Part shown: positions 3,267-53,180 of the stretch, piece by piece
Layout of the letters: every line of letters begins with the position of its first letter
How positions within the stretch are numbered: the first letter of the stretch is position 1
Source of the DNA: Actinomycetota bacterium
GTDB lineage: Bacteria > Actinomycetota > UBA4738 > HRBIN12
Direction of reading: 5' to 3'
DNA: 64,000 bases
Assembly (NCBI GenBank): GCA_035697485.1
Contig: DASSCU010000037.1
Location: 1-64,000 of the forward strand
Notes under the pieces: generated by a model
What the model was told of the DNA's origin: nothing
The model's database searches: none
What the model saw: the letters and a program-made list of their open reading frames with translations, nothing else
Position numbers and translations under genes: made by a program

Positions 3267-3611
3267 GTGGAAGCGCGAGCCACCATGAAGTACGTGCGCA
3301 CGTCGCCGCGGAAGATGCGGCGCGTGATCGACATGATCCGCGGCCAGCACGTGGTCGAGGCGCGGCGCATCCTGCGCTTCTCGCCGCTCGGGCCCACGCC
3401 CGAGGTCGAGAAGCTGCTGAACTCGGCGATCGCCAACGCCGAGCAGCAACCCGGCGTGATCGAGGACAACCTGATGGTGTCGCGCGCCTGGGTCGACGAG
3501 GGCCCGACGCTGCGGCGGTACCGGCCGCGCGCGTACGGCCGCGCCACGCGGGTGCGCAAGCGCACGTCGCACGTGACGCTCGTGGTGGAGACGATGGGAG
3601 AGGAAGCCTAG
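3267..3611 (+). CDS. rplV: 50S ribosomal protein L22
   Basis: L22 (114 aa) lines the exit tunnel with L4 and is a macrolide-resistance hotspot. ARATMKYVRTSPRKMRRVID and the beta-hairpin tip around PRAYGRATRVRKRTSH are typical. GTG start 4 nt after rpsS; the stop TAG shares one base with the GTG of rpsC. Confidence 0.97.
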   Translation: MEARATMKYVRTSPRKMRRVIDMIRGQHVVEARRILRFSPLGPTPEVEKLLNSAIANAEQQPGVIEDNLMVSRAWVDEGPTLRRYRPRAYGRATRVRKRTSHVTLVVETMGEEA

Positions 3612-17294: not shown

Positions 17295-17693
17295 GTGGCA
17301 GCAGTGACCCCCGTGAAGATCAACACCGGCCGCCGCAAGGAGGCCGTGGCGCGGGTGCGCCTCGTGCCGGGCGCGGGCGAGTTCGACATCAACGGCCGCA
17401 GCCTCGAGGAGTATTTCCCGACCCGCGTGCATCGCATGGTGGCGGTGTCGCCGCTGCGCGTCTGCGGGCGCGAGAAGGACTACGACGTGATCGCGACGAT
17501 CCGAGGCGGTGGCGTCAGCGGGCAGGCGGGTGCGATCCGTCTCGGCATCGCCCGCGCGCTGATCGAGCTCGATCCGGAGCTGCGCGGCCAGATGAAGGCC
17601 GAGGGCTACCTCACACGCGACGCCCGGGAGAAGGAACGTCGCAAGTACGGGCTCAAGAAGGCCCGCAAGGCGCCCCAGTACTCGAAGCGCTGA
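17295..17693 (+). CDS. rpsI: 30S ribosomal protein S9
   Basis: S9 (132 aa); its C-terminal tail reaches the P site. [16 protein letters not shown] and the end [16 protein letters not shown] are diagnostic. GTG start 4 nt after rplM. Confidence 0.97.
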
Positions 17694-17746
17694 TCCTCCG
17701 AGCGCTTCGGGCCTCACCCGGAGCAGACGCAAGGGCGGAGAGCGCG

Positions 17747-18943
17747 ATGCCCCACGAGATCGCCCCCGGCGTGCTCAGCTGGGCGAGCGAGCTCGACGAG
17801 GCCACGCGCGAGCAGGCCGAACGCACCGCGCGGCTGCCGATCGTCGCGGGCCACATCGCCCTGATGCCCGACGCCCACCTCGGCATGGGCGCGACGATCG
17901 GGTCCGTGATCGCGACCGAGACCGCGGTGATCCCGTCGGCGGTCGGCGTCGACATCGGATGCGGCATGGCCGCCCGTCGGCTCGATCTGCGGATCGACCA
18001 GCTGCCCGACCGGGGCCTGGACGGGTGGGTGGATCGCATGCGACGCAGCGTGCCCGCGGGACTCGGACACTGGCACCGCGAGCCGTCCCCTGACGGGCTC
18101 GAGTGGTTCGCGGCACATGCGCCGCCCGAGTCCCTGACCCACCCCGACCGAGCGGCGGCTCAGCTCGGCACGTTGGGCTCGGGCAACCACTTCGTCGAGC
18201 TGGCGGTCGACGAGCAGGGCGCCGTCTGGATCCTGCTGCACTCCGGGTCGCGTGGGGGCGGGAATCAGCTCGCCACGCTGCACACGAAGGTCGCCCGGCG
18301 CCTGCACGAGGGACTCGGCACGAGGCTCGAGGATCCGGAGCTGGCCTGGCTCCAGCAGGGCACACCCGAGTTCGACACCTACATCCGCGATCTGGGGTGG
18401 TCCCAGCGCTACGCGCGTGAGAACCGACGGCAACTGCTCGTGGCCACCCATCGTGCGCTCGAGTCGGAGCTCGGGCGGGAGATCCATGCGACCGACGAGG
18501 TCAACTGCCACCACAACTACACCGAGCTCGAGGAGGTCGGAGCGCGGCGTTTGTGGATCACGCGCAAGGGTGCCATCCGCGCGGGCGTCGGCGACCGGGG
18601 TCTGGTGCCGGGCAGCATGGGGCAGCGTTCCTACGTCGTGCGGGGGCTCGGCAACGAGGCCTCGTACCGGTCGTCCGCGCACGGAGCCGGCCGCCGCATG
18701 AGTCGGACCAAGGCGCGCAAGGCGCTGTCGATCGAGTCGTTCGAAGCCCGCATGGCCGGGCGCTCCTGGCAGGCCTCCGACGCCGTGGCGCTGCTCGATG
18801 AGCACCCCGACGCGTACAAGCCGATCGACGTCGTGATGCGCGATCAGGCCGACCTCGTCGAGGTGGAACACGAGCTCGAGGGGCTGGCGAACTACAAGGG
18901 GGTCGAGGCGGCGCGGCGGGCGCGCCACGGCAGGCGGACGTAG
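17747..18943 (+). CDS. rtcB: RNA-splicing ligase RtcB family
   Basis: RtcB (398 aa) joins RNA 2',3'-cyclic phosphate or 3'-phosphate ends to 5'-OH ends using GTP and Mn. Metal and guanylate sites are visible: PDAHLGMGATIGSV, GVDIGCGMAARR, GNHFVELAVDE, HSGSRGGGNQLA, HHNYTE, PGSMGQRSYVVRG and the nucleophile His in SAHGAGRRMSR. This is the shorter actinobacterial form. No rtcA or rtcR is nearby. It starts 53 bp after rpsI with GGAGAG upstream, possibly by read-through from the ribosomal operon. Confidence 0.93.
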   Translation: MPHEIAPGVLSWASELDEATREQAERTARLPIVAGHIALMPDAHLGMGATIGSVIATETAVIPSAVGVDIGCGMAARRLDLRIDQLPDRGLDGWVDRMRRSVPAGLGHWHREPSPDGLEWFAAHAPPESLTHPDRAAAQLGTLGSGNHFVELAVDEQGAVWILLHSGSRGGGNQLATLHTKVARRLHEGLGTRLEDPELAWLQQGTPEFDTYIRDLGWSQRYARENRRQLLVATHRALESELGREIHATDEVNCHHNYTELEEVGARRLWITRKGAIRAGVGDRGLVPGSMGQRSYVVRGLGNEASYRSSAHGAGRRMSRTKARKALSIESFEARMAGRSWQASDAVALLDEHPDAYKPIDVVMRDQADLVEVEHELEGLANYKGVEAARRARHGRRT

Positions 18944-39487: not shown

Positions 39488-39502
39488 CGTAGACGACCTA
39501 CG
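39488..39502 (+). promoter_or_regulatory. EPS palindrome, site 2
   Basis: CGTAGACGACCTACG, a perfect CGTAG-N5-CTACG. Its centre (39495) is 43 bp upstream of a -10 TAGATT (39538-39543) that would start transcription of the polymerase-flippase genes near 39550. Symmetry extends outward to CGACGTAG and CTACGTCG. Confidence 0.75.
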
Positions 39503-42298: not shown

Positions 42299-43776
42299 CG
42301 TCGTCGGCCGATCCGATCGGCGCCGGTCGTTCGGTCGGGCTCGTGCTGGCCTCGAACACCGGCTGGCGGCTCCTGGCGTTCGGCGCCCGGACGCTGGGCG
42401 GACTGCTCGCCACCGTGCTGCTCGCCCACCTCGAGGGACCGGCCGGCCTGGGCCGGTTCCAGTTCGCGCTGACGCTGACACTGCTGCTGAGCTTCGCGGT
42501 GGCGTTCGGCCTGCCCAAGCTCCTCGTGCGAGAGCTCGCCAGGCGTCCGGGCGAGATGCGGGACGTGGTCGAGACCGCGATGACGACCGCCGGGCTCGCC
42601 GGAGTCGCCGTGACGGCGCTCATGTTCGTGTTCGGGCTGCTCTTCGATGCGGGCACCACGGTGCTGGTGCTGGCCGGCCTCGCGCTCATGGTCGATTCGG
42701 TGATGCGGATCACGATGGCGCCGTTCTGGGCCCTGGAGAGGATGCGGTACGAGGCGCTGGCGGTGGGGGTGCAGGAGGGCGCGTTCGTGCTCCTGACGAT
42801 CGGGGTGTTGGTCGGCGGGGCCGGCGCCGCGGGGGTGATGGCTGCCTACCTCGCGTCGCGTCTGGTCGGTCTCGTCGCGGCGTGGCTGATCGTGGCCACG
42901 AAGCTCCGCATCACGCTGGTCCCTCGATGGCATGCGGGAGCCGTGGCGCCGCTGCTGAAGAAGTCCATGCCGTTCGCGCTCGACGACGCGTTGTCGCTCG
43001 CGTACATCCGGCTCGACACGATCCTGCTGGGGATCATGGTCGGCCCCCACGCCGTCGGCCTCTACCAGTCCGCCACGAACCTCGTCCTGTACCTCAACAT
43101 CCTTCCTCGGATGCTCAACATGTCGATGTACCCGCGCATGAGCCGCGCCTGGCCGGGGCGGGTCGCGGAGCTCCGCCGGCTGCTCGACTCCTCCGTGTTG
43201 ATCCTCGGCGCCATCGCGATGCCGATCACCGTCGGATCGTTCCTGCTCGCGCCCAGGGTCTTCGAGGTGCTGTACGGAAGCAGCTTCGAGCGGGCGGTGC
43301 TCGCCTACCAGCTCCTCGTCCCGATCATCCCTCTGCGCATGCTCGGGAACTCCCTCGGCACCGCCCTGACGGCCGCCGACCATCAGACGCAGCGAACCGT
43401 TGCCGTCGGCGTCGCCGCGGCCGTGAACCTCGGGCTGAACCTCGCGCTGATCCCGCAGTGGTCCTACTTCGGAGCGGTCGCAGCGACGATCGTGACCGAG
43501 ACCGGCCTGTTCGTGGCGTATGCGGTGATGGTTCGTCGGGTGTCGGGCGCCACCTGCCTCTTCACCGCGGTCCTCGTTCCAGGGCTCGCCTGCATCCCGC
43601 TCGCCGCCGCGGTCGTGCTGCTCGCTGATCTGCCCCTGGCCGTCGTCGTGGTCGCGGCCGGCTGTGTCTACGTCGTGGCCTTGTGCGGGCTCGTCGTCAT
43701 CAGCGCTCGCGAGCGTAGCCTGCGGCCTCGTGCGGTCGCGACCGCCTTCCTCAAGCTGTCGCCACGGATGACCTGA
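42295..43776 (+). CDS. Wzx-like polysaccharide flippase
   Basis: 493-aa MATE/Wzx family membrane protein with about 14 helices. RLLAFGARTLGGLLATVLLA at the N terminus and FALDDALSLAYIRLDTILLG mid-protein are typical of polysaccharide exporters. It flips undecaprenyl-linked repeat units. GTG 42295 overlaps the polymerase stop; the three genes form a transport-polymerisation unit. Confidence 0.88.
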   Translation: MTSSADPIGAGRSVGLVLASNTGWRLLAFGARTLGGLLATVLLAHLEGPAGLGRFQFALTLTLLLSFAVAFGLPKLLVRELARRPGEMRDVVETAMTTAGLAGVAVTALMFVFGLLFDAGTTVLVLAGLALMVDSVMRITMAPFWALERMRYEALAVGVQEGAFVLLTIGVLVGGAGAAGVMAAYLASRLVGLVAAWLIVATKLRITLVPRWHAGAVAPLLKKSMPFALDDALSLAYIRLDTILLGIMVGPHAVGLYQSATNLVLYLNILPRMLNMSMYPRMSRAWPGRVAELRRLLDSSVLILGAIAMPITVGSFLLAPRVFEVLYGSSFERAVLAYQLLVPIIPLRMLGNSLGTALTAADHQTQRTVAVGVAAAVNLGLNLALIPQWSYFGAVAATIVTETGLFVAYAVMVRRVSGATCLFTAVLVPGLACIPLAAAVVLLADLPLAVVVVAAGCVYVVALCGLVVISARERSLRPRAVATAFLKLSPRMT

Positions 43777-43888
43777 AGCGAACCTGGGGAGAACTCGGTG
43801 GGTAAGATTCTCCACAGGAAGAGACCCTGCTCCGCAGTGTTTCACATGCTGGGTCGCTGAAACGGCCTAGCCCGTTTCCCCTACATCC

Positions 43889-43918
43889 TTTACAGCGTGA
43901 AGTTGTTTCAAATAGACT
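43889..43918 (+). promoter_or_regulatory. Promoter of the histidine kinase gene
   Basis: -35 TTTACA (43889-43894), 18-nt spacer, -10 TAGACT (43913-43918). The spacer region is unusually AT-rich for this window. No EPS palindrome lies at the expected distance. The 194-bp gap also contains CATAC-N10-GTATG (43934-43953). Confidence 0.65.
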
Positions 43919-43970
43919 CCCCCCCTAGAGACTCATACGCGATCTGCTGTATGGGAACGGGGGGAGAGGT

Positions 43971-45581
43971 TTGGGGCGAACGGCGGAGGCGGCACTTCAG
44001 CGGACCGCTCACGACGACTCGGCACTGCTCCTGGGCATGTGCCATGCGTTCGGGTCAGAGCCCGATGTCGAGAGTCTCCTGCGGGCGTCGGGACGATGGA
44101 TCGCCGCGGCCCTCCTCGGGGAGGTGGTCGCGCTGCGGTTCATCGTGGTCGACCACCTCGGTCGGCTCCGCTCCGTCGATGAATCAGGCGAGGACATCTG
44201 GGGCGATCCGTCCTTCCGACGCGCCAGGCACGCGGTCGAGACGAAGGCGGCGCGGCTCGGTGAAGCCCGCGCGTTCGGGGGAGCCCGGATCCGGACCATC
44301 CCTCTCGTGTCCCGGGGCACGGCTCTCGGGGCCGTCGAGATCGCGACGACCTCGTCCGAACGTCCTGAGCGCTGGGGAACCGTGGATGCCGTGATCAGTC
44401 AGACGGCCGTGGCTCTTGCCAACCTCACGTCGCGCTCGTCGATCGATCGAAGCCGAGCGTCGATGCGACAGGCGATCGGGCTCGGCGCACGGATGGTGGG
44501 CGAGGATTCCCGCGACGGAGCGATCCGCGTCCTCGTTCGGGGTCTGCACCGCGATCTCGGTGTGCGGTCCGTCGGCTGGATCGTCGAGCGTGGTTGGTCG
44601 CCCCGCCTCGTGTCGACGGGGGGGCTGGGTTCGCGCCGGCGCGACCGGCTGCGCTCCCCGGCGCTGTCCGACGACGGCGACGTCGTCGAGCAACTCGTCG
44701 CCGCGTTCCGTTCGGAGATCGGCGACCGCCGGGTCGATGTGACCGGAGGGGGTGGTGCCGTGGTGCTGGTGGAGGCGCCGGCAGATCCGGCGGCGATCGA
44801 GGCCGTGGCGTCCCTCCGCGACCTCGCGAGCGAATGGTTCGACTGGATGTCGTCGTTCGAGGGTGCCGAGCGACGCGTCGACTGGTACGGCACCGCGCTG
44901 GCGGTGACGGCCCACGAGATCCGAGGGCCGATGCTGGCCGCCAAGGCGACGATCGACGGGATGCTGGAGGAGGGCGGGCACGCCTCCGCGGATCGGGCGA
45001 AGCTTCGGCGTTCCAGGCGGCAGCTCGAGGACCTGGCGGAGACCGTCGATGTCCTGCTGCGTTGGTCGCGTCCCGAAGAGGCGATGCGGCGCCGCGGAGC
45101 CGATCTGTCGCGCGTGGTGGGCGCCGCCGTCGAGTCGGTCGCGCGTGAGACGGGCGAGCGGCGGGTGGCGTTCGAGCCGTCCCCGATCCAGATCAAGGTT
45201 CCCATCTCCCGTCGCCACGTGTCGCTCGCGGTCGCCAACCTGGTCCGCAACGCCCTCGCATTCTCACCGCCCGGATCACCGGTCGAGGTCGGGGTGACCA
45301 TCGACGAACCGTGGGCGAGGATCACCGTTCGTGATCTGGGCCCGGGGATCGCCGACGGCGACGTCGACGCGATCTTCGAGCCCTTCGTGCGGGGTCGGTC
45401 CGTCCGTTCGGCACGTGCGGGGAGCGGTCTCGGACTCTTCGTCGTGAGACGCGTCGCGGAGGCGCACGGCGGACAGGTCTGGGTCGCCCGAGGGCGGTCG
45501 GAGACGACGTTCAATCTGGCGCTGCCCCTCCGCGTGGGTGGGGTCGAGGCAGAGGAAGCGGGGTCGCCATCGACGCGCTGA
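43971..45581 (+). CDS. Cytosolic GAF-type sensor histidine kinase
   Basis: 536 aa with no signal or membrane segment. Residues 20-150 resemble a GAF sensor (ALLLGMCHAFGSEPDVESLL). A second linker region follows, then a HisKA-type dimerisation domain with phosphorylatable His near 315 in TAHEIRGPMLAAK, N-box LVRNALAFSPPGSP, G1 DLGPGIADGD and G2 GSGLGLFVVRRVAEAHGG. TTG 43971 follows GGGGGAGAGG directly. Overlaps the first response regulator by 4 nt, its probable partner. Confidence 0.86.
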   Translation: MGRTAEAALQRTAHDDSALLLGMCHAFGSEPDVESLLRASGRWIAAALLGEVVALRFIVVDHLGRLRSVDESGEDIWGDPSFRRARHAVETKAARLGEARAFGGARIRTIPLVSRGTALGAVEIATTSSERPERWGTVDAVISQTAVALANLTSRSSIDRSRASMRQAIGLGARMVGEDSRDGAIRVLVRGLHRDLGVRSVGWIVERGWSPRLVSTGGLGSRRRDRLRSPALSDDGDVVEQLVAAFRSEIGDRRVDVTGGGGAVVLVEAPADPAAIEAVASLRDLASEWFDWMSSFEGAERRVDWYGTALAVTAHEIRGPMLAAKATIDGMLEEGGHASADRAKLRRSRRQLEDLAETVDVLLRWSRPEEAMRRRGADLSRVVGAAVESVARETGERRVAFEPSPIQIKVPISRRHVSLAVANLVRNALAFSPPGSPVEVGVTIDEPWARITVRDLGPGIADGDVDAIFEPFVRGRSVRSARAGSGLGLFVVRRVAEAHGGQVWVARGRSETTFNLALPLRVGGVEAEEAGSPSTR

Positions 45582-46258
45582 TCGTCGACGACCACCGGCT
45601 GTTCGCCGAAGCGATCCGCCCCACGCTGCAGCGGCTCGGCATGGAGGTCACGATCGTGACGAGCGGATCTGCGGCGATCGAGGTGGCCGTGCGCCGGCAG
45701 ATCGACGTGGCGCTGGTGGACCTGGGGTTGCCCGACATGCGTGGCGAGGAGGTCGGCTCGCGCCTACTGGGGATCAGGCCCGAGACGGTCGTCATCGCGC
45801 TGACCGCGTTGGACGACGAGCGCAAGGCGAAGGACCTGATCGCGGGGGGCTTCCGCGGATACCTCACGAAGGATCTGCGCGTCGCGACGCTCTCGAGAGC
45901 CATCAGGTCCGCGATGGCGGGGGAGACGGTGGCGCTCTCCCGGCCTCCGCGACGGCCCGACCCTTCGGCCGCGTCGCCCGATCGGCTCGTGGAGCTGCTC
46001 GTCTCCACCCTCACCCCTCGGGAACGTCAGGTCTTGGAGTTGCTCGCTCGAGGGAGCGGGGGGCCGGACATCGCTCGAGAGATGGAGATCAGCGTGAACA
46101 CGGTGCGGACCCACGTGCAGAGCATCCTCACGAAGCTGCAGGTCCATTCGCGGCTCGAGGCTGCCGCCTTCGCCGTGCGGCACGGGTTGTTCGAAGGTCC
46201 CACTTCCATCGACGACGCGCGGGCCGGCGGGGCCGGTCGCCTCGCGCGCACGACGTAG
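45578..46258 (+). CDS. NarL/LuxR-type response regulator 1, non-canonical start
   Basis: 226 aa if read from CTG 45578. Receiver domain: LIVDDHRLFAEA with the acidic pair, phosphoacceptor Asp48 in VDLGLPDMRG, Thr/Lys in LTALDDE and FRGYLTKDLR. Linker 115-135, then LuxR HTH LTPRERQVLELLARG and SVNTVRTHVQSILTKL. No ATG/GTG/TTG lies upstream of the receiver in this frame: CTG overlaps the kinase stop (CTGA) and ATC 45569 sits 11 nt from AGAGGAA. The first ATG (45641) would remove strand 1 and the acidic pair. Confidence 0.85.
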   Translation: MIVDDHRLFAEAIRPTLQRLGMEVTIVTSGSAAIEVAVRRQIDVALVDLGLPDMRGEEVGSRLLGIRPETVVIALTALDDERKAKDLIAGGFRGYLTKDLRVATLSRAIRSAMAGETVALSRPPRRPDPSAASPDRLVELLVSTLTPRERQVLELLARGSGGPDIAREMEISVNTVRTHVQSILTKLQVHSRLEAAAFAVRHGLFEGPTSIDDARAGGAGRLARTT

Positions 46259-46268
46259 CGGCTCTACG
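46254..46268 (+). promoter_or_regulatory. EPS palindrome, site 3
   Basis: CGTAGCGGCTCTACG, a perfect CGTAG-N5-CTACG overlapping the end of regulator 1. Its centre (46261) is 42 bp upstream of a -10 TAACGT (46303-46308) just before regulator 2. This suggests autoregulation of the regulator gene. Confidence 0.78.
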
Positions 46269-46328
46269 GCGGGCATCGCGTGTCCATGGGCCAGGCGACG
46301 CGTAACGTCCGGACGTCGGGGGGCAATC

Positions 46329-47030
46329 ATGGATGATCGACAGCGCCACGTTCGGGCCGTGCTCGCAGACGGGCACGCGCTGTTCCGCGAGGCGATCACG
46401 TCCGCCCTCGAAGCCCACGACGGGATCGTCGTCGTCGCCGATGTCGGAGACGGGCCGGGCGCCATCGCGAAGGCGATGCAGCTCCGACCCGATTGCGCCT
46501 TCATCGACGTCGAGCTCCCCGGCATCGACGGCATCGAGGTCACGCGCCGGATCAAGGAGCGACTCCCGGACTGCGCGGTGATCGTGCTGGCGCCCAGCGA
46601 GGACGATGCCCCGCTCGTCGCAGCGATCGAGGCCGGGGCGAGCGGTTTCCTGACGAAGGACTGCCCCCTGACCGACCTCATCACCGCGGCGCACGCGGTG
46701 CTGGACGGGGAGATGGTCGTGCCCCCCCGTCTACTCGCCCCGCTGCTGTCGGGGCTGATGCGCCATCGGAAGGAACAGGATGAGGCGATGCGACGGCTCG
46801 CTCGGCTGACCCGCCGCGAGCGCGAGGTCCTGGCCCTGCTCGCGCAGGGGGCAGGGAACGACCGCATCGCCGAGGACCTCGTGATCAGCCCGCAGACAGC
46901 ACGGACGCACGTCCAGAACCTGATCACGAAGCTCGGGGTCCACTCGAGGTTGGAGGCGGCGATGTTCGCGGCCCGGAACGACGTCGTGCGCGATCCTGAC
47001 GACGAGGAGCTCGCGCACGTCGGCGGATAG
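46329..47030 (+). CDS. NarL/LuxR-type response regulator 2, altered acidic pocket
   Basis: 233 aa. Receiver domain with phosphoacceptor Asp60 in FIDVELPGIDG and Lys in SGFLTKDCPL; but the usual DD acidic pair is AD-G (Asp14-Gly15) in VLADGHALFREA, so Mg binding may be weakened. C-terminal LuxR HTH: LTRREREVLALLAQGAGNDR and SPQTARTHVQNLITKL. It may respond weakly or in a phosphorylation-independent way. Palindrome site 3 and a -10 TAACGT precede it; it is 4 nt from the GT4 gene. Confidence 0.9.
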   Translation: MDDRQRHVRAVLADGHALFREAITSALEAHDGIVVVADVGDGPGAIAKAMQLRPDCAFIDVELPGIDGIEVTRRIKERLPDCAVIVLAPSEDDAPLVAAIEAGASGFLTKDCPLTDLITAAHAVLDGEMVVPPRLLAPLLSGLMRHRKEQDEAMRRLARLTRREREVLALLAQGAGNDRIAEDLVISPQTARTHVQNLITKLGVHSRLEAAMFAARNDVVRDPDDEELAHVGG

Positions 47031-47034
47031 GGCC

Positions 47035-48180
47035 GTGGCCTCGCCGCAGCGTCGTCCGCAGGTGATCCACGTGGCGACCCGGTTCCTGCGTGGAGGGTCG
47101 GAGGCTCGGATCAGGGACATCGCCCGGGCGATCCCCTCGGCCGACCATCACCTGATCGTCGGCCCCGAGTCCGATCTCGACCTGGCCCGGGAGCGCGTCG
47201 CTCCCGCATCGCTGAGGGTGATCCGCTCCCTGGTTCGCCGGCCTCAGCCGGTCCTTGACGTCGCCGCATTCATGCAGCTCTCGCGGCTGCTCCGGACCGA
47301 GCCCTACGATCTCCTGATCACGCACCAGTCGAAGGCGGGCGTCCTCGGGCGCGCGGCTGCGGCCTCGATGCCGCGAGGCGAGGTCGTCCACTCGTTGTCG
47401 ATGGCCAGCTTCGGCCCGGGGTATCCACGTGTGCAGGATCGGGTCTTCCGAGCGCTGGAACGACGGCTCGGTGCCCACACGGGTGCCTACGTCGTGGTCG
47501 GCGCCGATCTCGTCCGCCGGTACACCGAGCTCGGGATCGAGCCGGTGAAGTTCCACGTGGTCCGATCCGATGCCCACGTGCACACCGCGCACGGCCCCGA
47601 CGCCGTCCGCGTCCGGCGGGATGCCGGACTGCCGGATGACCGGCCGGTCGTCCTCTACCTGGGGAGCCTGGACCCGCGCAAGAACGTCCTGCAGCTCGTC
47701 GACCTCCTGGAACACCTGATGGACGTGCCCCTGCCGGCGCGGCCCTTCCTCGCCGTGGCCGGGCAGGGTCCGCTCCGACGGGAGCTGGAGCACGCGTTGG
47801 TCGATCGCGGTCTCACGGGAGACGCCGCGGTGCTCGGCTTCGTCGACGAGCCGACTTCCCTGGTGGCCGCGGTCGAGGCGCTCGTCCTTCTCAGCGGGGT
47901 CGAGGGCCTGCCGCAGGTGTTGGTCCAGGCGGCAGCCGTCGGCACGCCGTTCGTGGCCTACGACGTCGACGGCGTGCAGGAGCTCCTCGAGCTGGGGGCC
48001 GTAGGCCGGGCGGTCGCTCCCGGGGCGCTCGAGGATGCCGCTGAGGCGATCCAGGCCGTTCTGACGGCGGAGCGCCCTCCTCCCGCGGCGGACCTCTCCT
48101 CGTGGTCGCCCGATGAGATCGCCCGGAGGTATCGCGAGGTGATCGAGCCGCTCATCGAAGCTCCCCTCGTTCGGGCGTGA
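47035..48180 (+). CDS. Glycosyltransferase family 4
   Basis: 381-aa GT-B glycosyltransferase. N-terminal VIHVATRFLRGGSEARI resembles the acceptor-domain start of GT4; the C-terminal donor site has VVLYLGSLDPRKNVLQLVDL, LAVAGQGPLRREL and the EX7E-like segment GVEGLPQVLVQAAAVGTP. Probably cytosolic and membrane-associated, extending the lipid-linked repeat unit. GTG start, cotranscribed with regulator 2. Confidence 0.88.
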   Translation: MASPQRRPQVIHVATRFLRGGSEARIRDIARAIPSADHHLIVGPESDLDLARERVAPASLRVIRSLVRRPQPVLDVAAFMQLSRLLRTEPYDLLITHQSKAGVLGRAAAASMPRGEVVHSLSMASFGPGYPRVQDRVFRALERRLGAHTGAYVVVGADLVRRYTELGIEPVKFHVVRSDAHVHTAHGPDAVRVRRDAGLPDDRPVVLYLGSLDPRKNVLQLVDLLEHLMDVPLPARPFLAVAGQGPLRRELEHALVDRGLTGDAAVLGFVDEPTSLVAAVEALVLLSGVEGLPQVLVQAAAVGTPFVAYDVDGVQELLELGAVGRAVAPGALEDAAEAIQAVLTAERPPPAADLSSWSPDEIARRYREVIEPLIEAPLVRA

Positions 48181-48212: not shown

Positions 48213-49190
48213 CTACGTGCCCGCCGCCGATGCGGCGAGTGCAGGACGAACGGTCCGATCGAGGTGCCACGAGACCTGCCGCGCGAGGCCGTCGCGGAGC
48301 CCGACGTTCGGGGTCCAGCCGAGGACCGAGGCCGCGCGTTCCGCCGAGCCCCCCGTCCGCTGCACGTCACCGGCGGCCTGCGGTCGTTGATCGAGCGAGA
48401 TCGTCGCACGGGTCAGCTCCTCGACGATCGCGATGACTTCCAGCACGGTCGTGGCCGTGCCGCCGGCGACGTTGAGCACGGTGCCGGGCGCCACGTCGGC
48501 GCGTGACGCCAGCACGTTCGCCTCCACGATGTCGCCGACGAACGTGAAGTCGCGGATCTGCTGCCCGTCCCCGTACAGCGGGAACGGGCGTCCGGAGCGC
48601 GCTGCCTCGATCAGGCGATGCATGGCCATGTCGGGGCGCTGCCTCGGACCGTAGACCGTGAAATACCGGAGCGACACGACCGGCAGTCCGTGATTGCGCG
48701 CGTACACACCGCAGAGGTGCTCGGCCGCGAGCTTCGTCACGCCGTACGGGCTCTGCGGCCGGGGAAGGTCGTCCTCCGTCGTCGGGTAGGCGGGGGCGTT
48801 GCCGTAGACCGAGGAGCTGGACGCATACACGACCCGTCCGACCTCGGATCCGCTCGCGGCTTCGAGGAGCCGCTGGGTCACGAGCACGTTCTGTCGCAGG
48901 TACGATTCGAAGCCATCACGCCACGATGCCCGGACACCCGGTTGCCCGGCCTGGTGAAACACCACATCCACGCCGTCGAGCAGCTCCCCGAGGTCCGCGG
49001 TCGCGAGGTCACCCTCGATCAGCCGGCAGGCACCGAGGCCGCTGAGCGCCTCCCAGTTCGCCCGCTTCTGCTCCAGGTCGTAGTACGGGGAGAAGGCATC
49101 GATCGCGACGACGTCGTGTCGATCGGCGACGAGTCGCTCGACCAAGGTGCTCCCGACGAAGCCGGCCGCGCCGGTGACGAGCGCTCGCAT
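48213..49190 (-). CDS. NAD-dependent UDP-sugar epimerase (UDP-glucuronate 4-epimerase-like)
   Basis: 325-aa extended SDR on the minus strand. VTGAAGFVGSTLVERLVAD, YYDLEQKRANW, ASSSSVYGNAPAYP with YGVTKLAAEHL, and LRYFTVYGPRQRPDMAMHRL resemble UDP-GlcA 4-epimerase or UDP-GlcNAc C4-epimerase enzymes. ATG 49190 is preceded by GGAGG-rich sequence. Convergent with the GT4 gene (32 bp). Its -10 (TAGCGT, minus strand, 49293-49288) lies 42 bp from the centre of palindrome site 4. Confidence 0.88.
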   Translation of the reverse strand: MRALVTGAAGFVGSTLVERLVADRHDVVAIDAFSPYYDLEQKRANWEALSGLGACRLIEGDLATADLGELLDGVDVVFHQAGQPGVRASWRDGFESYLRQNVLVTQRLLEAASGSEVGRVVYASSSSVYGNAPAYPTTEDDLPRPQSPYGVTKLAAEHLCGVYARNHGLPVVSLRYFTVYGPRQRPDMAMHRLIEAARSGRPFPLYGDGQQIRDFTFVGDIVEANVLASRADVAPGTVLNVAGGTATTVLEVIAIVEELTRATISLDQRPQAAGDVQRTGGSAERAASVLGWTPNVGLRDGLARQVSWHLDRTVRPALAASAAGT

Positions 49191-49327
49191 GCGTCTCCGC
49201 TCCTCCCTCCACGAGATCGACGCGCCCGGAGCGGCTTCTCGGCTCCTCTTGCGCACGTCGTACGCACGTCGATCCGCGACCGCATCGACGCTACCGAGCG
49301 GCCGGCGGCCGCACATCCTGCGGATCG

Positions 49328-49342
49328 CGTAGCCGCCGTACG
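49328..49342 (-). promoter_or_regulatory. EPS palindrome, site 4
   Basis: CGTAGCCGCCGTACG, CGTA-N7-TACG. Centre 49335; 42 bp from the first base of the minus-strand -10 TAGCGT (49293-49288), which drives the UDP-sugar epimerase. The plus-strand dioxygenase starts 67 bp away on the other side. Confidence 0.75.
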
Positions 49343-49408: not shown

Positions 49409-50197
49409 ATGCCCGCCGACGCGACCACGATGCCCGCCCTCTACCTTGGCCACGGTGCTCCGCCGCTGCTCGACGACGAGCGGTGGAAGAGCGAGCTCAC
49501 GCGGTGGGCCGGCGAGCTGCCGCGACCGCGAGCGGTGCTGATCGTCTCGGCGCATTGGGAGTCGGCGCCATTGACCCTCGGAGCGACGGAGACCGGCACG
49601 CCGCTCACGTACGACTTCTACGGGTTCCCTGAGCGCTACTACCGGATGACATATCCGTCGCCCGGGGCGCCCGGGCTCGCCGCTCGCGTCAAGGCGCTGA
49701 TGCCCGATGCCGAGACCGTGGCAGAGGCGCCGGGGTACGGGCTGGATCACGGCGCATACGTGCCGCTGATGGTGATGTACCCGGAGGCCGACGTGCCCGT
49801 GCTGCAGATGTCGATGCCGTCCCTCGACCCGCAGCGTCTCTTCGACCTCGGGCGTCGGCTCCGACCGCTGCGCGACGAGGCGGTGCTGGTGATCGGCTCG
49901 GGCTTCCTGACGCACGGGCTCCCGTTCCTCACCGACTGGCGCACCGACGCGGCGCCGCCGGGGTGGTCGCGCGAGTTCGACCTGTGGGCCGCCGAGGCAC
50001 TCGCGCGGGGAGCGGTCGACGAGCTGATGGACTTCCGCCGTCGCGCGCCGGGCATGCCCTACGCGCACCCGACCACCGAGCATCTCGCGCCGCTGTTCGT
50101 CACGCTTGGTGCGGCGGGCGACCCCGAAGCCGCTCCCGACACGGCGATCGAAGGCTTCTTCATGGGCCTCGCCAAGCGTTCGGTCCAGATGGCCTGA
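49409..50197 (+). CDS. Extradiol dioxygenase, LigB/YgiD (4,5-DOPA dioxygenase-like)
   Basis: 262-aa class III extradiol dioxygenase. The metal ligand histidines are recognisable in LYLGHGAPPLL, VSAHWES, YGLDHGAYVPLMVMYP and near the C terminus YAHPTTEHLAPLF. Related enzymes cleave catechols such as DOPA. ATG 49409 gives the family start MPALYLGHGAPP after seven residues; an earlier in-frame start is not homologous. Its role beside an EPS locus is unclear. Converges with the secreted phosphoesterase. Confidence 0.88.
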   Translation: MPADATTMPALYLGHGAPPLLDDERWKSELTRWAGELPRPRAVLIVSAHWESAPLTLGATETGTPLTYDFYGFPERYYRMTYPSPGAPGLAARVKALMPDAETVAEAPGYGLDHGAYVPLMVMYPEADVPVLQMSMPSLDPQRLFDLGRRLRPLRDEAVLVIGSGFLTHGLPFLTDWRTDAAPPGWSREFDLWAAEALARGAVDELMDFRRRAPGMPYAHPTTEHLAPLFVTLGAAGDPEAAPDTAIEGFFMGLAKRSVQMA

Positions 50198-50218: not shown

Positions 50219-53065
50219 CTACGGCAGCAGGGTGACGACCAGCTGGGGGGTGAACCCCGGATCGCCGTTGCGCGACGTCCACTTCGCCCCGTCGGTCGAG
50301 GGCGTGGTGATGCGGAGGCTGTACACGCCGTCGGCGCGGATCAGGCTCGAGAGGTCGACCTCGTACCAGGTGTTGGTGCCCACCGAACCGAGGGTGGCGA
50401 CAGGGGTGCCGACGGCCGCGGGAGCGTTGTCCCAGGTCACGCCCGTCTCGGTCCAGCTCGCATCCGACGTCGCCGAGAACACGCCCCCGGTGTCGGACGC
50501 ACCGACGTTGAACATGCGGAGCTTCGCCGTCGCGACGGTGCGCGGGCCGATGCCGGTCACCGAGAACTTCATCAGCCCGTGTTCGCTCGGGGAGGAGTCG
50601 ATCGAGAGCGACGAGCTCGTGCCGTAGTTCGTCGTCGGCGCCCCCGCGCGGATCGTGGCGTCGGCGGTCGGCGCGAACGTGAGCTCGCTTCCGGGTGCGG
50701 TCGTGGCGACCGCGGTGTTGGAGGCAGCCGAGACGTTCCCCGCGAGGTCGACGGCCCTGACCACGTACGAGTACGTCGATCCCGGCGTCAGCGACCCGTC
50801 GAGGTAGGTCGTGCCGTGGGCCGTGTCCACCGCGACGCCGTCGCGGACGATCGTGTAGTGGTCGACGGCGACGTCGTCGGTGCTGGCGGTCCATGACAGG
50901 TCGACCTGGTCGCCCCCGACCGGTGTCGCGACGAGGCCCGTCGGAGCCGTCGGCGGGGTCGAGTCGCCGTTCGATGGCCCGCCCGAGCTGATCGTGAAGG
51001 AGTCCGCGACGCTCCCGACGCTCGGCACGAAGGTGGCGTCCAGTCGATCGGCGGTCACCCTGTAGCTCATGATGCCGTTCCCGGCGCCGGCCGTCGTCGC
51101 GAAGTACGGAAGCTCAGGATCGTCGAGCTTGATCGAGGAGCCGGACCGCCCGAAGGTCCCGACCACCTGGACGACCGTCCCCGCGCCCTTGTCCATCAAT
51201 TCCGCGCCGCTGGCGGCGACGCAGTCCTGATCGAACCCGCCGAGCACGAACGACGGGCACGTCCCCGGCTGGAGGGCGAGTTGCTTGCTGCGTTGGTAGT
51301 TGTGGTGGTGTCCCCCGAGGATCAGGTCGACCTTCTTCTGGAGGAGGAGGTTGAACAACGGCTGGCCGATCGGACAGCCGGAGTTCGATGCGGAGATGCA
51401 CGGGTAGTGCATGCCGACGACGATCCACCGGATCCCCTCCGCGCGAGCTGCGTCGATCGAATCGGAGAGCCACCGGTAGTGGACGTCATTCATCCCGTAC
51501 GTGTAGTTGACGTTCTCGATCGTGAGGTCGGGCGAGATCATGAACACCCGCATCAGGGGAGCCCCCGCCGGGTAGTCGAAGTAGTACTCGGCGCCGTAGT
51601 CCCGTTCCACACCCAGGGTCGCTCCCAGCCGGTCCGGCAGGCACGCGGCATGGTTCATGATGTAGCCGTCGGCACCGTTCTGGTCCTCGTGGTTCCCGGC
51701 GACGATCTCGAAGGGGTACGTCGGACCGAGATCGGGCAACCCGGCCTTCACCCAGTCGCACCACGCTTCGTCGGTCGGCGTCTCGTCGTAGTCCAGATCG
51801 CCCAGCGCGAGGAAGAAGTCGGTCCCGGAAGCGTTCAGGGTCGCGAGGCTCGCGGTCGCCCTCGACGTCGTACCGAAGTCCCCCGCGGCGGCGAAGGTGA
51901 ACGACGTGGGCGCCGGGGGAGCGGGAGGGGTCGTCACGTCGGCGGGGTCCGAGGGAACCGACCGGTTCCCGGACGGATCCACCGCGACCACCGTGTATCG
52001 ATAGGTGGCCTCGGCGGTCACCCCGTCGTCGATGTACGTGGTGCCCGCGGTGGTGTCGATCTCAGCATCGTCGCGAACGATCAGGTACCCGGCCACGCCG
52101 ACGTCGTCATCGCTCGCCGTCCAGCTGAGGTCCACGCGGGTCGGACCGGTCGCCGTGGCCACCAGGCCGGTCGGGGCCGTGGGTGGGTCGACGTCAACCA
52201 CGTTGTCGACGAGCACCGCGACCGGCTGAGAGGCGCCCGCGTTCCCGACGGCATCTCGTGCGATCGCCGTGAGCTCGTGGGCGCCGTTGGCGACGGAGGA
52301 CGAATCCCATGGGATCACGTAGGGAGCGGTCGAGTCGGTCCCGACGGTCTGGCCGTCGACCTGCAGGTCCACAGCGACGACCCCCACGTCGTCCGTGGCG
52401 TCCACCCCGACGTCGATCGACCCGTTGACGGTCGCGCCCGGGGAGGGCGAGGTGATCGAGGCGGTCGGTGTCGCCACGTCCGGCGATGGAGCGACCGTGA
52501 CCACGAGTTCCGGCCGGAAGCCCACCTTCCCTTCCTTCGACCTGAAGGAGATCTTGTTGCTCGTCGGGGTGGCGATCCGCAGGCCGAACTGGCCGTCTCC
52601 GGTCACGAGCGTGGACAGGTCGACCTCGTGCCAGGTGGCGGTCGTGATCGCGCCCAGCGTGGCCAGCGGCGTGGGGTCGGCCGGCGGCGCCGTGTTCCAG
52701 TTCATCGTGCTCTCGCTCCACGTCGTGTTCGCCACACGGGAGAACACGCCGCCGACGGACGCGCCATCGGTCACGTAGAGACGGAGCTTCGCACTCTCGA
52801 CGATGTCGGTACCCACGCCCGAGACGGTGAACCGCATGAAGGAGTACCGCACGGGTGAGTTGTCGGCCGCGAGCGATGTCTCCGAGCCACCGGTCGCTGT
52901 CGGCTGATCGGCCCGCACCGTCGTATCGGCGGCCGGCAGGAAGGAGAGGATCCTGGGCGCTGCGGGAGCCGGCAGAGCGGTCAGCAGGCTCGCGACCATG
53001 GCGGAGAGCGTGAGTGCGACGAAGATCGCCGATCGCGTCCCTCTCTTACCGTCGCCGCGTCGCAC
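50219..53065 (-). CDS. Large secreted multidomain metallophosphoesterase with DNRLRE and FN3 modules
   Basis: 948 aa. Signal peptide 1-37 (ALPAPAAP cleavage). DNRLRE/CBM96-like domain about 45-195; Ig-like 200-295; FN3 300-385; calcineurin-type metallophosphoesterase 388-690 with GDFG, LGDLDYD, GNHED, GMHYP and GGHHHNYQRS; FN3 705-790; second DNRLRE 795-948 ending QLVVTLLP. GTG 53065 is chosen because a minus-strand -10 TAGGGT (53078-53073) ends 7 nt upstream, giving a leaderless gene. Likely a surface or matrix-attached phosphatase/nucleotidase. Confidence 0.86.
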   Translation of the reverse strand: MRRGDGKRGTRSAIFVALTLSAMVASLLTALPAPAAPRILSFLPAADTTVRADQPTATGGSETSLAADNSPVRYSFMRFTVSGVGTDIVESAKLRLYVTDGASVGGVFSRVANTTWSESTMNWNTAPPADPTPLATLGAITTATWHEVDLSTLVTGDGQFGLRIATPTSNKISFRSKEGKVGFRPELVVTVAPSPDVATPTASITSPSPGATVNGSIDVGVDATDDVGVVAVDLQVDGQTVGTDSTAPYVIPWDSSSVANGAHELTAIARDAVGNAGASQPVAVLVDNVVDVDPPTAPTGLVATATGPTRVDLSWTASDDDVGVAGYLIVRDDAEIDTTAGTTYIDDGVTAEATYRYTVVAVDPSGNRSVPSDPADVTTPPAPPAPTSFTFAAAGDFGTTSRATASLATLNASGTDFFLALGDLDYDETPTDEAWCDWVKAGLPDLGPTYPFEIVAGNHEDQNGADGYIMNHAACLPDRLGATLGVERDYGAEYYFDYPAGAPLMRVFMISPDLTIENVNYTYGMNDVHYRWLSDSIDAARAEGIRWIVVGMHYPCISASNSGCPIGQPLFNLLLQKKVDLILGGHHHNYQRSKQLALQPGTCPSFVLGGFDQDCVAASGAELMDKGAGTVVQVVGTFGRSGSSIKLDDPELPYFATTAGAGNGIMSYRVTADRLDATFVPSVGSVADSFTISSGGPSNGDSTPPTAPTGLVATPVGGDQVDLSWTASTDDVAVDHYTIVRDGVAVDTAHGTTYLDGSLTPGSTYSYVVRAVDLAGNVSAASNTAVATTAPGSELTFAPTADATIRAGAPTTNYGTSSSLSIDSSPSEHGLMKFSVTGIGPRTVATAKLRMFNVGASDTGGVFSATSDASWTETGVTWDNAPAAVGTPVATLGSVGTNTWYEVDLSSLIRADGVYSLRITTPSTDGAKWTSRNGDPGFTPQLVVTLLP

Positions 53066-53078: not shown

Positions 53079-53112
53079 TCCAGCGGCCGCGGCCCCCACC
53101 CCATGCATGTCG

Positions 53113-53127
53113 CGTATGCCCGCTACG
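53113..53127 (-). promoter_or_regulatory. EPS palindrome, site 5
   Basis: CGTATGCCCGCTACG, with symmetry extending to GCGTA and TACGC. Centre 53120, 42 bp from the minus-strand -10 at 53078. Its spacer is identical to that of site 1, sixteen kilobases away. Confidence 0.78.
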
Positions 53128-53165: not shown

Positions 53166-53180
53166 CGTAGCGCATCTACG
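53166..53180 (+). promoter_or_regulatory. EPS palindrome, site 6
   Basis: CGTAGCGCATCTACG, a perfect CGTAG-N5-CTACG. Centre 53173; 42 bp downstream lies GAGACT (53215-53220), a weak -10 for the plus-strand glycosylphosphotransferase. It is 53 bp (five helical turns) from site 5, so the divergent promoters may be bound cooperatively. Confidence 0.7.

Follow-up and report, generated by a model that had tools for sequence, protein, structure and literature searches.

What controls an exopolysaccharide (EPS) island that carries a histidine kinase and two response regulators among its own genes, and which of these proteins reads the inverted repeat that recurs upstream of several of those genes? 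The question is raised by contig DASSCU010000037.1 (C37) of an Actinomycetota bacterium whose genome (G000) comprises 3.4 Mb in 64 contigs, and of which positions 1-64000, the window referred to throughout, were analysed. Among solved structures, the closest matches to the RNA polymerase alpha chain of this genome are mycobacterial chains, in keeping with an actinobacterial origin. The EPS island spans approximately 37-58 kb of the window and ends before GroEL. The trio of kinase, REG1 and REG2 sits within it, as the initial annotation had described, and no other regulator was recognised in those island genes that were scanned. The reading favoured here, with a probability of roughly 0.66, is that the trio is an activator module dedicated to the EPS cluster of this island, in which REG2 would bind the repeat as its operator. 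The three genes and the kinase promoter are as follows.

43889-43918, plus strand: kinase promoter, TTTACA (43889), 18-bp spacer and TAGACT (43913), read directly from the sequence.
43971-45581, plus strand: soluble histidine kinase with two GAF-like domains, a HisKA-like helix containing TAHE, and HATPase_c (from Pfam, orthologues, AlphaFold and Foldseek).
45569-46258, plus strand: REG1, NarL-type response regulator with an intact receiver (Response_reg 1.5e-20, GerE 1.9e-18).
46329-47030, plus strand: REG2, NarL-type regulator with a degenerate receiver (Response_reg 6.3e-23, GerE 6.7e-19).

The repeat, CGTA-N7-TACG, is present in six copies in the window against 0.17 expected, a number reached by none of 100 shuffled sequences, and its stronger core is CGTAG-N5-CTACG. 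The strict core occurs four times in the G000 genome, with three of these occurrences in the EPS island; the 26 relatives of the order have 0-1 copies apiece, in several cases on the regulator's contig. Because the relaxed palindrome is found 36 times genome-wide and its reversed control 69 times, the relaxed count is uninformative unless a -10 box is considered with it. The six copies, most of them putative operators, and the -10 box of REG2 are listed below.

46254-46268: REG2 operator, CGTAGCGGCTCTACG, beginning 75 bp 5' of the REG2 ATG; in the same place in G007, G004/G014/G016, G010, G289 and G219.
46303-46308, plus strand: REG2 promoter -10 box, TAACGT, 34 nt after the operator.
39488-39502: operator 5' of the Wzz-like gene (39645), with a -10 of TAGATT at offset 35.
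49328-49342: operator for the epimerase gene (minus strand, 48213-49316), with a -10 of TAGCGT at 49293-49288.
53113-53127: operator for the metallophosphoesterase/CBM96 gene (minus strand), with a -10 of TAGGGT at 53078-53073.
53166-53180: second operator of the divergent region, 5' of the sugar transferase gene (Bac_transf, 53340), with no TANNNT at the fixed distance.
49608-49622: palindrome within the LigB-like gene, with no -10 at 34/35; probably a chance copy.

The first of these sites bears out the earlier claim that REG2 has a promoter of its own with the EPS palindrome. The distance between palindrome and -10 box is not arbitrary: when 46 oriented sites were scanned for TANNNT, the hexamer was found 10 times at offset 34, 5 times at offset 35, and 4 times at the remaining 48 offsets together. 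Composites of operator and -10 number four in the window, and none was recovered from 200 dinucleotide shuffles. Alignment of 17 promoters located a TG at +13/+14 past the palindrome (15/17 and 16/17, respectively), taken here as a degenerate -35 (nTGnnn) positioned 17-18 bp before the TANNNT -10, and the centre of the palindrome then falls near -55. The offset histogram and the 17 promoters thus describe a site at fixed distance 5' of a weak -35 and a -10, as for an activator, and it is from this fixed spacing and weak -35 that we infer the palindrome to be an activator operator centred near -55. One composite site in G000 lies outside the EPS island (C62:30042-30096, L221) and may be a chance occurrence or a distant member of the regulon.

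The kinase promoter is built differently from the activator-dependent promoters that bear the palindrome. It is a good sigma-70-like pair with a strong -35, TTTACA, and reads as activator-independent; as previously stated, it lacks the palindrome, none being present in 43700-44050, where the best partial match agrees at 6/10 positions. The palindrome also stands before the kinase gene in G018 and G010, and the wiring therefore differs between genomes.

Conservation of the site follows REG2. The palindrome was found upstream of 9/15 REG2-clade genes, at -75 to -135 and in 7 genera, versus 0/37 for other NarL genes; three of the nine cases come from one genus (G004, G014 and G016), so that about seven are independent. 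It is also located between REG1 and REG2 in relatives that share no more than about 50% protein identity. Among the 45 genomes screened for the composite pattern, the 10 REG2-bearing genomes of the order hold 25 composites (5 in G000; 4 each in G004, G007, G014 and G016; 3 in G010; 1 in G018; 0 each in G021, G023 and G025) versus 3 in the 17 without REG2, or 0.18 per genome. Persistence of the palindrome in genomes without both regulators, which the initial annotation had named as contrary to its proposal, was thus not seen with the composite pattern. Six genomes of the same family that carry the trio have 3-5 composites each, nearly all in EPS islands; the targets in G004 are genes for Wzz/AAA_31, an NTP-transferase and a sugar transferase, and the target in G049 is a Polysacc_synt_2 gene adjoining its second REG2.

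Regulators 1 and 2 had both been put forward as readers of the palindrome. That a NarL-type member of the trio fills this role is supported by conservation of the site before REG2 and EPS genes, but the two candidates do not stand evenly, REG2 being the likelier. Orthologues of REG1 were not found in G021, G023, G025, G219 and G289, yet G289 and G219 keep the palindrome immediately 5' of REG2, two copies follow the REG2 gene cluster in G023/G025, and the second REG2 copy of G049, with no adjacent REG1, has a composite site alongside. Conversely, G091 encodes the kinase and REG1, with REG2 not found in these searches, and shows neither a palindrome in the vicinity nor a composite site. Because the site accompanies REG2 where REG1 was not found, and is missing from the REG1-only locus, REG2 is quite likely the protein that reads it. 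At the loci of G025 and G023 (L105 and L106; about 8390-10816 in L106), REG2, unaccompanied by REG1, is the first in a series of small genes, two of which look PqqD-like by eye, and the palindrome pair lies ahead of the gene for a protein of 145 residues whose start is twin-arginine-like.

Several observations weigh against this reading. The absence of REG1 from G023 and G025 rests on genomes that are 61-73% complete, and the exact upstream site is missing at REG2 of G056, at the first copy of G049, and at G021. REG1 shares its predicted contact residues with REG2, and REG1 as reader is thus compatible with the sequence. In the REG2-less genomes G006 and G009, the whole island is missing between a conserved epimerase gene and groEL, and because these two genomes lack the island itself, island loss and regulator loss are partly confounded. 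Furthermore, as the palindromes lie within the island, the two may be passed on together, which would make the co-occurrence weaker than it appears. A third REG2-less genome, G008, still has a REG1-REG2 pair, now decayed, at the corresponding chromosomal position, where both kinase and palindrome are missing (L212, about 17585-18831). In G018, a second, rearranged version of the module (C188; L112, 171-4463) exists in addition to the normal one; there, three NarL genes come after a kinase, and a palindrome at 3490 stands in front of the final one.

Both regulators have the NarL/FixJ domain order, a receiver followed by a GerE/LuxR helix-turn-helix, with matches above the cut-offs, which upholds their earlier designation as NarL-type proteins. 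They fall into two separate, well-supported clades (99/94 for that of REG2), and they differ in the receiver. The phosphorylation pocket of REG1 (paired acids, phospho-Asp, Thr/Ser and Lys) is kept in the aligned orthologues. Members of the REG2 clade are without the full pocket, since G, E, R, A, Q, S, N or K stands in for the second acid of the pair, Ala often takes the place of the switch Thr, and the phospho-Asp is lost in G049, G289 and G219. The degeneracy is graded among clade members, as an E at the second-acid position may still bind metal. REG2 is thus a pseudo-receiver protein, or atypical response regulator, in that the receiver is kept and pocket residues are lost clade-wide, and because of this degeneracy REG2 is probably not switched by phosphorylation. 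The recognition helices of the two proteins are nearly alike (NTVRTHVQSIL in REG1, QTARTHxQNxL in REG2), and for that reason predicted base contacts do not tell REG1 from REG2.

The kinase ORF opens with TTG and contains both hallmarks of a sensor histidine kinase, a HATPase_c domain (1.1e-22, Pfam) and an H-box histidine, in a TAHE motif that is invariant across 8 orthologues. No transmembrane helix was found, the top 19-residue hydropathy of 1.81 falling within the first predicted GAF-like domain, and the kinase is soluble as had been claimed. An AlphaFold model (pLDDT 78, pTM 0.46) has two GAF-like domains and a kinase core, and Foldseek ranks the folds of sensor kinases and bacteriophytochromes closest. 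When public genomes were scanned for homologues of the kinase, only distant kinases were returned.

A mechanism that would accommodate these features begins with the kinase, which would sense a cytoplasmic cue through its two GAF-like domains and phosphorylate REG1, the likely target given the gene order and the intact REG1 receiver. A REG2 dimer would bind CGTAG-N5-CTACG, as is suggested by phylogenetic footprinting that includes REG2 genomes without REG1, and the protein bound near -55 would help RNA polymerase start at promoters without a good -35, an activating role to which the promoter architecture points. Because the predicted operator precedes both REG2 and EPS genes (those for Wzz, the epimerase and the surface phosphoesterase; in relatives, those for an NTP-transferase, a sugar transferase and Polysacc_synt_2), REG2 is probably self-amplifying and would act as one switch for the whole island. 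Phosphorylated REG1 could act at the REG2 promoter through the very operator that REG2 would use, the two proteins having their predicted base-contacting residues in common, or it could form pairs with REG2. A direction in which REG1 switches on REG2 fits an intact receiver in the former and a degenerate one in the latter, and REG2 self-activation or a REG1-REG2 heterodimer would fit equally.

The heterodimer has an actinobacterial precedent in BldM-WhiI, a response-regulator pair of Streptomyces in which homodimers of BldM recognise a 16-bp promoter palindrome (PMC4125116). Both are orphan regulators of sporulation with no kinase next to them, and their sites are TCACcCgnncGgGTGA and TGnnCCGnnCGGGTGA (PMC4125116); the likeness to REG1 and REG2 is drawn from this published description. 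Applied to the EPS island, phosphorylated REG1 and the pseudo-receiver REG2 would read the palindrome together, and REG2 homodimers would do so where REG1 was lost. Such an arrangement would explain why a canonical and a pocket-degenerate NarL regulator with near-identical recognition helices share one operon, but the sites are near-symmetric and not composed of two different half-sites, and REG2 retains its site in genomes without REG1; the heterodimer is accordingly possible but rather unlikely. In the trio, moreover, a kinase stands beside one partner, EPS genes are the predicted targets, and the published TCAC-type sites of BldM and BldM-WhiI differ from CGTAG-N5-CTACG.

A strict cascade, in which phosphorylated REG1 is the sole reader and turns on REG2 and the EPS promoters, and REG2 has another role, draws on the canonical nature of REG1, its place beside the kinase, its intact receiver, the recognition residues it is predicted to share with REG2, and the lack of a site at the kinase promoter. 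It is nonetheless improbable, as palindromes accompany REG2 without REG1 in G289, G219, G023/G025 and the second copy of G049, and the REG1-only locus of G091 is without them. A reader encoded elsewhere in the genome, with the trio merely resident in the island, might account for the composite at C62:30042, and binding of the palindrome by REG2 is itself a prediction; this alternative is very unlikely, since the site tracks REG2 across genomes, directly upstream of the gene even in distant families, and other NarL genes are without it. Finally, inverted repeats can fold as hairpins and operators can repress, but repressor sites or RNA/terminator structures are the least credible explanation for repeats centred near -55, 5' of a degenerate -35 and at fixed spacing to a -10, the geometry of activation, with a 5-bp stem that precedes the transcription start and so is absent from the target's mRNA.

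Translation of REG1 is a separate matter: there is no ATG, GTG or TTG in its frame from an in-frame stop 81 codons upstream down to an ATG at 45641 that falls inside the receiver domain. This internal ATG was rejected as the start because initiation there would remove the paired aspartates conserved in orthologues. As relatives put the start at the usual N-terminus of the receiver, the probable start is a near-cognate ATC at 45569, with GTC 45563 and CTG 45578 as alternatives. Kinase and REG1 had been said to overlap by 4 nt; an overlap of this length is obtained only with the CTG start, and the likely ATC start gives 13 nt (45569-45581). Genuine 4-nt overlaps, ATGA and GTGA, do occur in two relatives, G056 and G018. 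The ATC at the start position was not accepted as stand-alone proof of initiation, because many response regulators carry Ile there, in an IRVLIVDD motif.

The absence of a canonical REG1 start extends to G049 (28 codons), G007 (90) and the second G018 locus (26), and in six more orthologues the canonical codons are just 15-28 codons 5' of the receiver motif, within the kinase gene. Among the orthologues tabulated, ordinary starts are confined to G056 (ATG) and G018 C83 (GTG); the others have mostly ATC, ATT, GTC or CTC at the expected position (including L079, L080, L081, L082, L085, L087 and L112). A strong Shine-Dalgarno sequence is found approximately 7 nt 5' of the expected REG1 start in G004, G014, G016 and G049, at -10 to -11 kcal/mol, and a weaker one in G000, at -5.8 with a spacing of 10. 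In every REG2 orthologue examined, by comparison, a canonical start codon lies no more than 20 codons away from the receiver motif. Near-cognate initiation at REG1 is credible because infC of the same lineage is likewise without an in-frame ATG, GTG or TTG (G000, G001, G004, G014 and G018). The lineage's infC genes (L200-L203 and L206, position 1501 and upstream) offer GTC/ATC-class candidates only, after an AGGAGG-like stretch. In G000, REG1 and infC both offer only ATC-/GTC-class codons after a purine-rich Shine-Dalgarno stretch, which for REG1, with its weak Shine-Dalgarno match, would be a putative infC-type near-cognate start; unlike infC, REG1 encodes a response regulator and its gene overlaps that of its kinase. 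A frameshift fusion of kinase and REG1 was also considered and rejected, as the frames differ by -1 and no slippery heptamer was seen near the junction in orthologues, and separate initiation is simpler because two orthologues have ordinary ATGA/GTGA starts.

A more tentative extension, on which we would not rely, is that REG1 is made from an infC-like near-cognate codon (ATC, ATT, GTC or CTC) nested in the 3' end of the kinase gene after a Shine-Dalgarno sequence, with its supply rationed by termination coupling and initiation-factor discrimination, and that REG2 self-amplifies via the EPS operator. Were this so, the start codon itself would act as a gate on the two-component system. More generally, near-cognate starts outside infC appear to recur in REG1 orthologues, and gene-finding programs that accept only ATG, GTG and TTG would place these starts wrongly.

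Relative to known systems, the trio resembles classical NarL/FixJ two-component systems in that a histidine kinase adjoins a regulator with receiver and GerE domains, and differs from them by the addition of a second, pseudo-receiver regulator and by the operator that precedes REG2 and EPS genes. The RcsB-RcsA system of the enterobacterial capsule is a LuxR-type pair with one unphosphorylated partner that controls polysaccharide genes and that partner's own gene, and under the proposed mechanism REG1 and REG2 would resemble it in these respects. RcsA, however, is without a NarL-type receiver, and the Rcs phosphorelay and binding site differ. In the literature on an EPS palindrome with a NarL pair, BldM-WhiI was the sole relevant precedent found. 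The trio would be a second actinobacterial case of a pocket-degenerate regulator beside a partner, here a phosphorylatable partner with an attached kinase. The analysis supplies an operator, a promoter geometry and a set of target genes, each of them predicted, for the making of polysaccharide by an actinobacterial lineage that has not been cultured, and all of these can be checked in vitro without culturing the organism.

The other genes of the EPS island surround the trio in the following order.

37020: nucleotidyltransferase-like gene.
39645: Wzz-like chain-length gene.
About 40934: Wzy_C gene.
42196: flippase gene, directly before the trio in the gene list.
47035: glycosyltransferase gene, after REG2.
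48213-49316, minus strand: epimerase gene.
49358: LigB-like gene.
Minus strand: metallophosphoesterase/CBM96 gene.
53340: sugar transferase gene (Bac_transf).
54623: sulfotransferase gene.
55858: PKD-CBM96 protein gene, followed by GroEL.

REG2 is probably co-transcribed with the glycosyltransferase gene at 47035. Because the predicted -10 of the epimerase gene falls at 49293-49288, its true start is probably at MRALVTG (about 49190, minus strand) rather than at 49316. Likewise, the predicted -10 of the metallophosphoesterase/CBM96 gene (53078-53073) falls within a longer ORF beginning at 53104, and for this reason the gene probably starts at GTG 53065 (window 53063-53065, minus strand) and would be almost leaderless; a signal-peptide-like sequence comes after this GTG.

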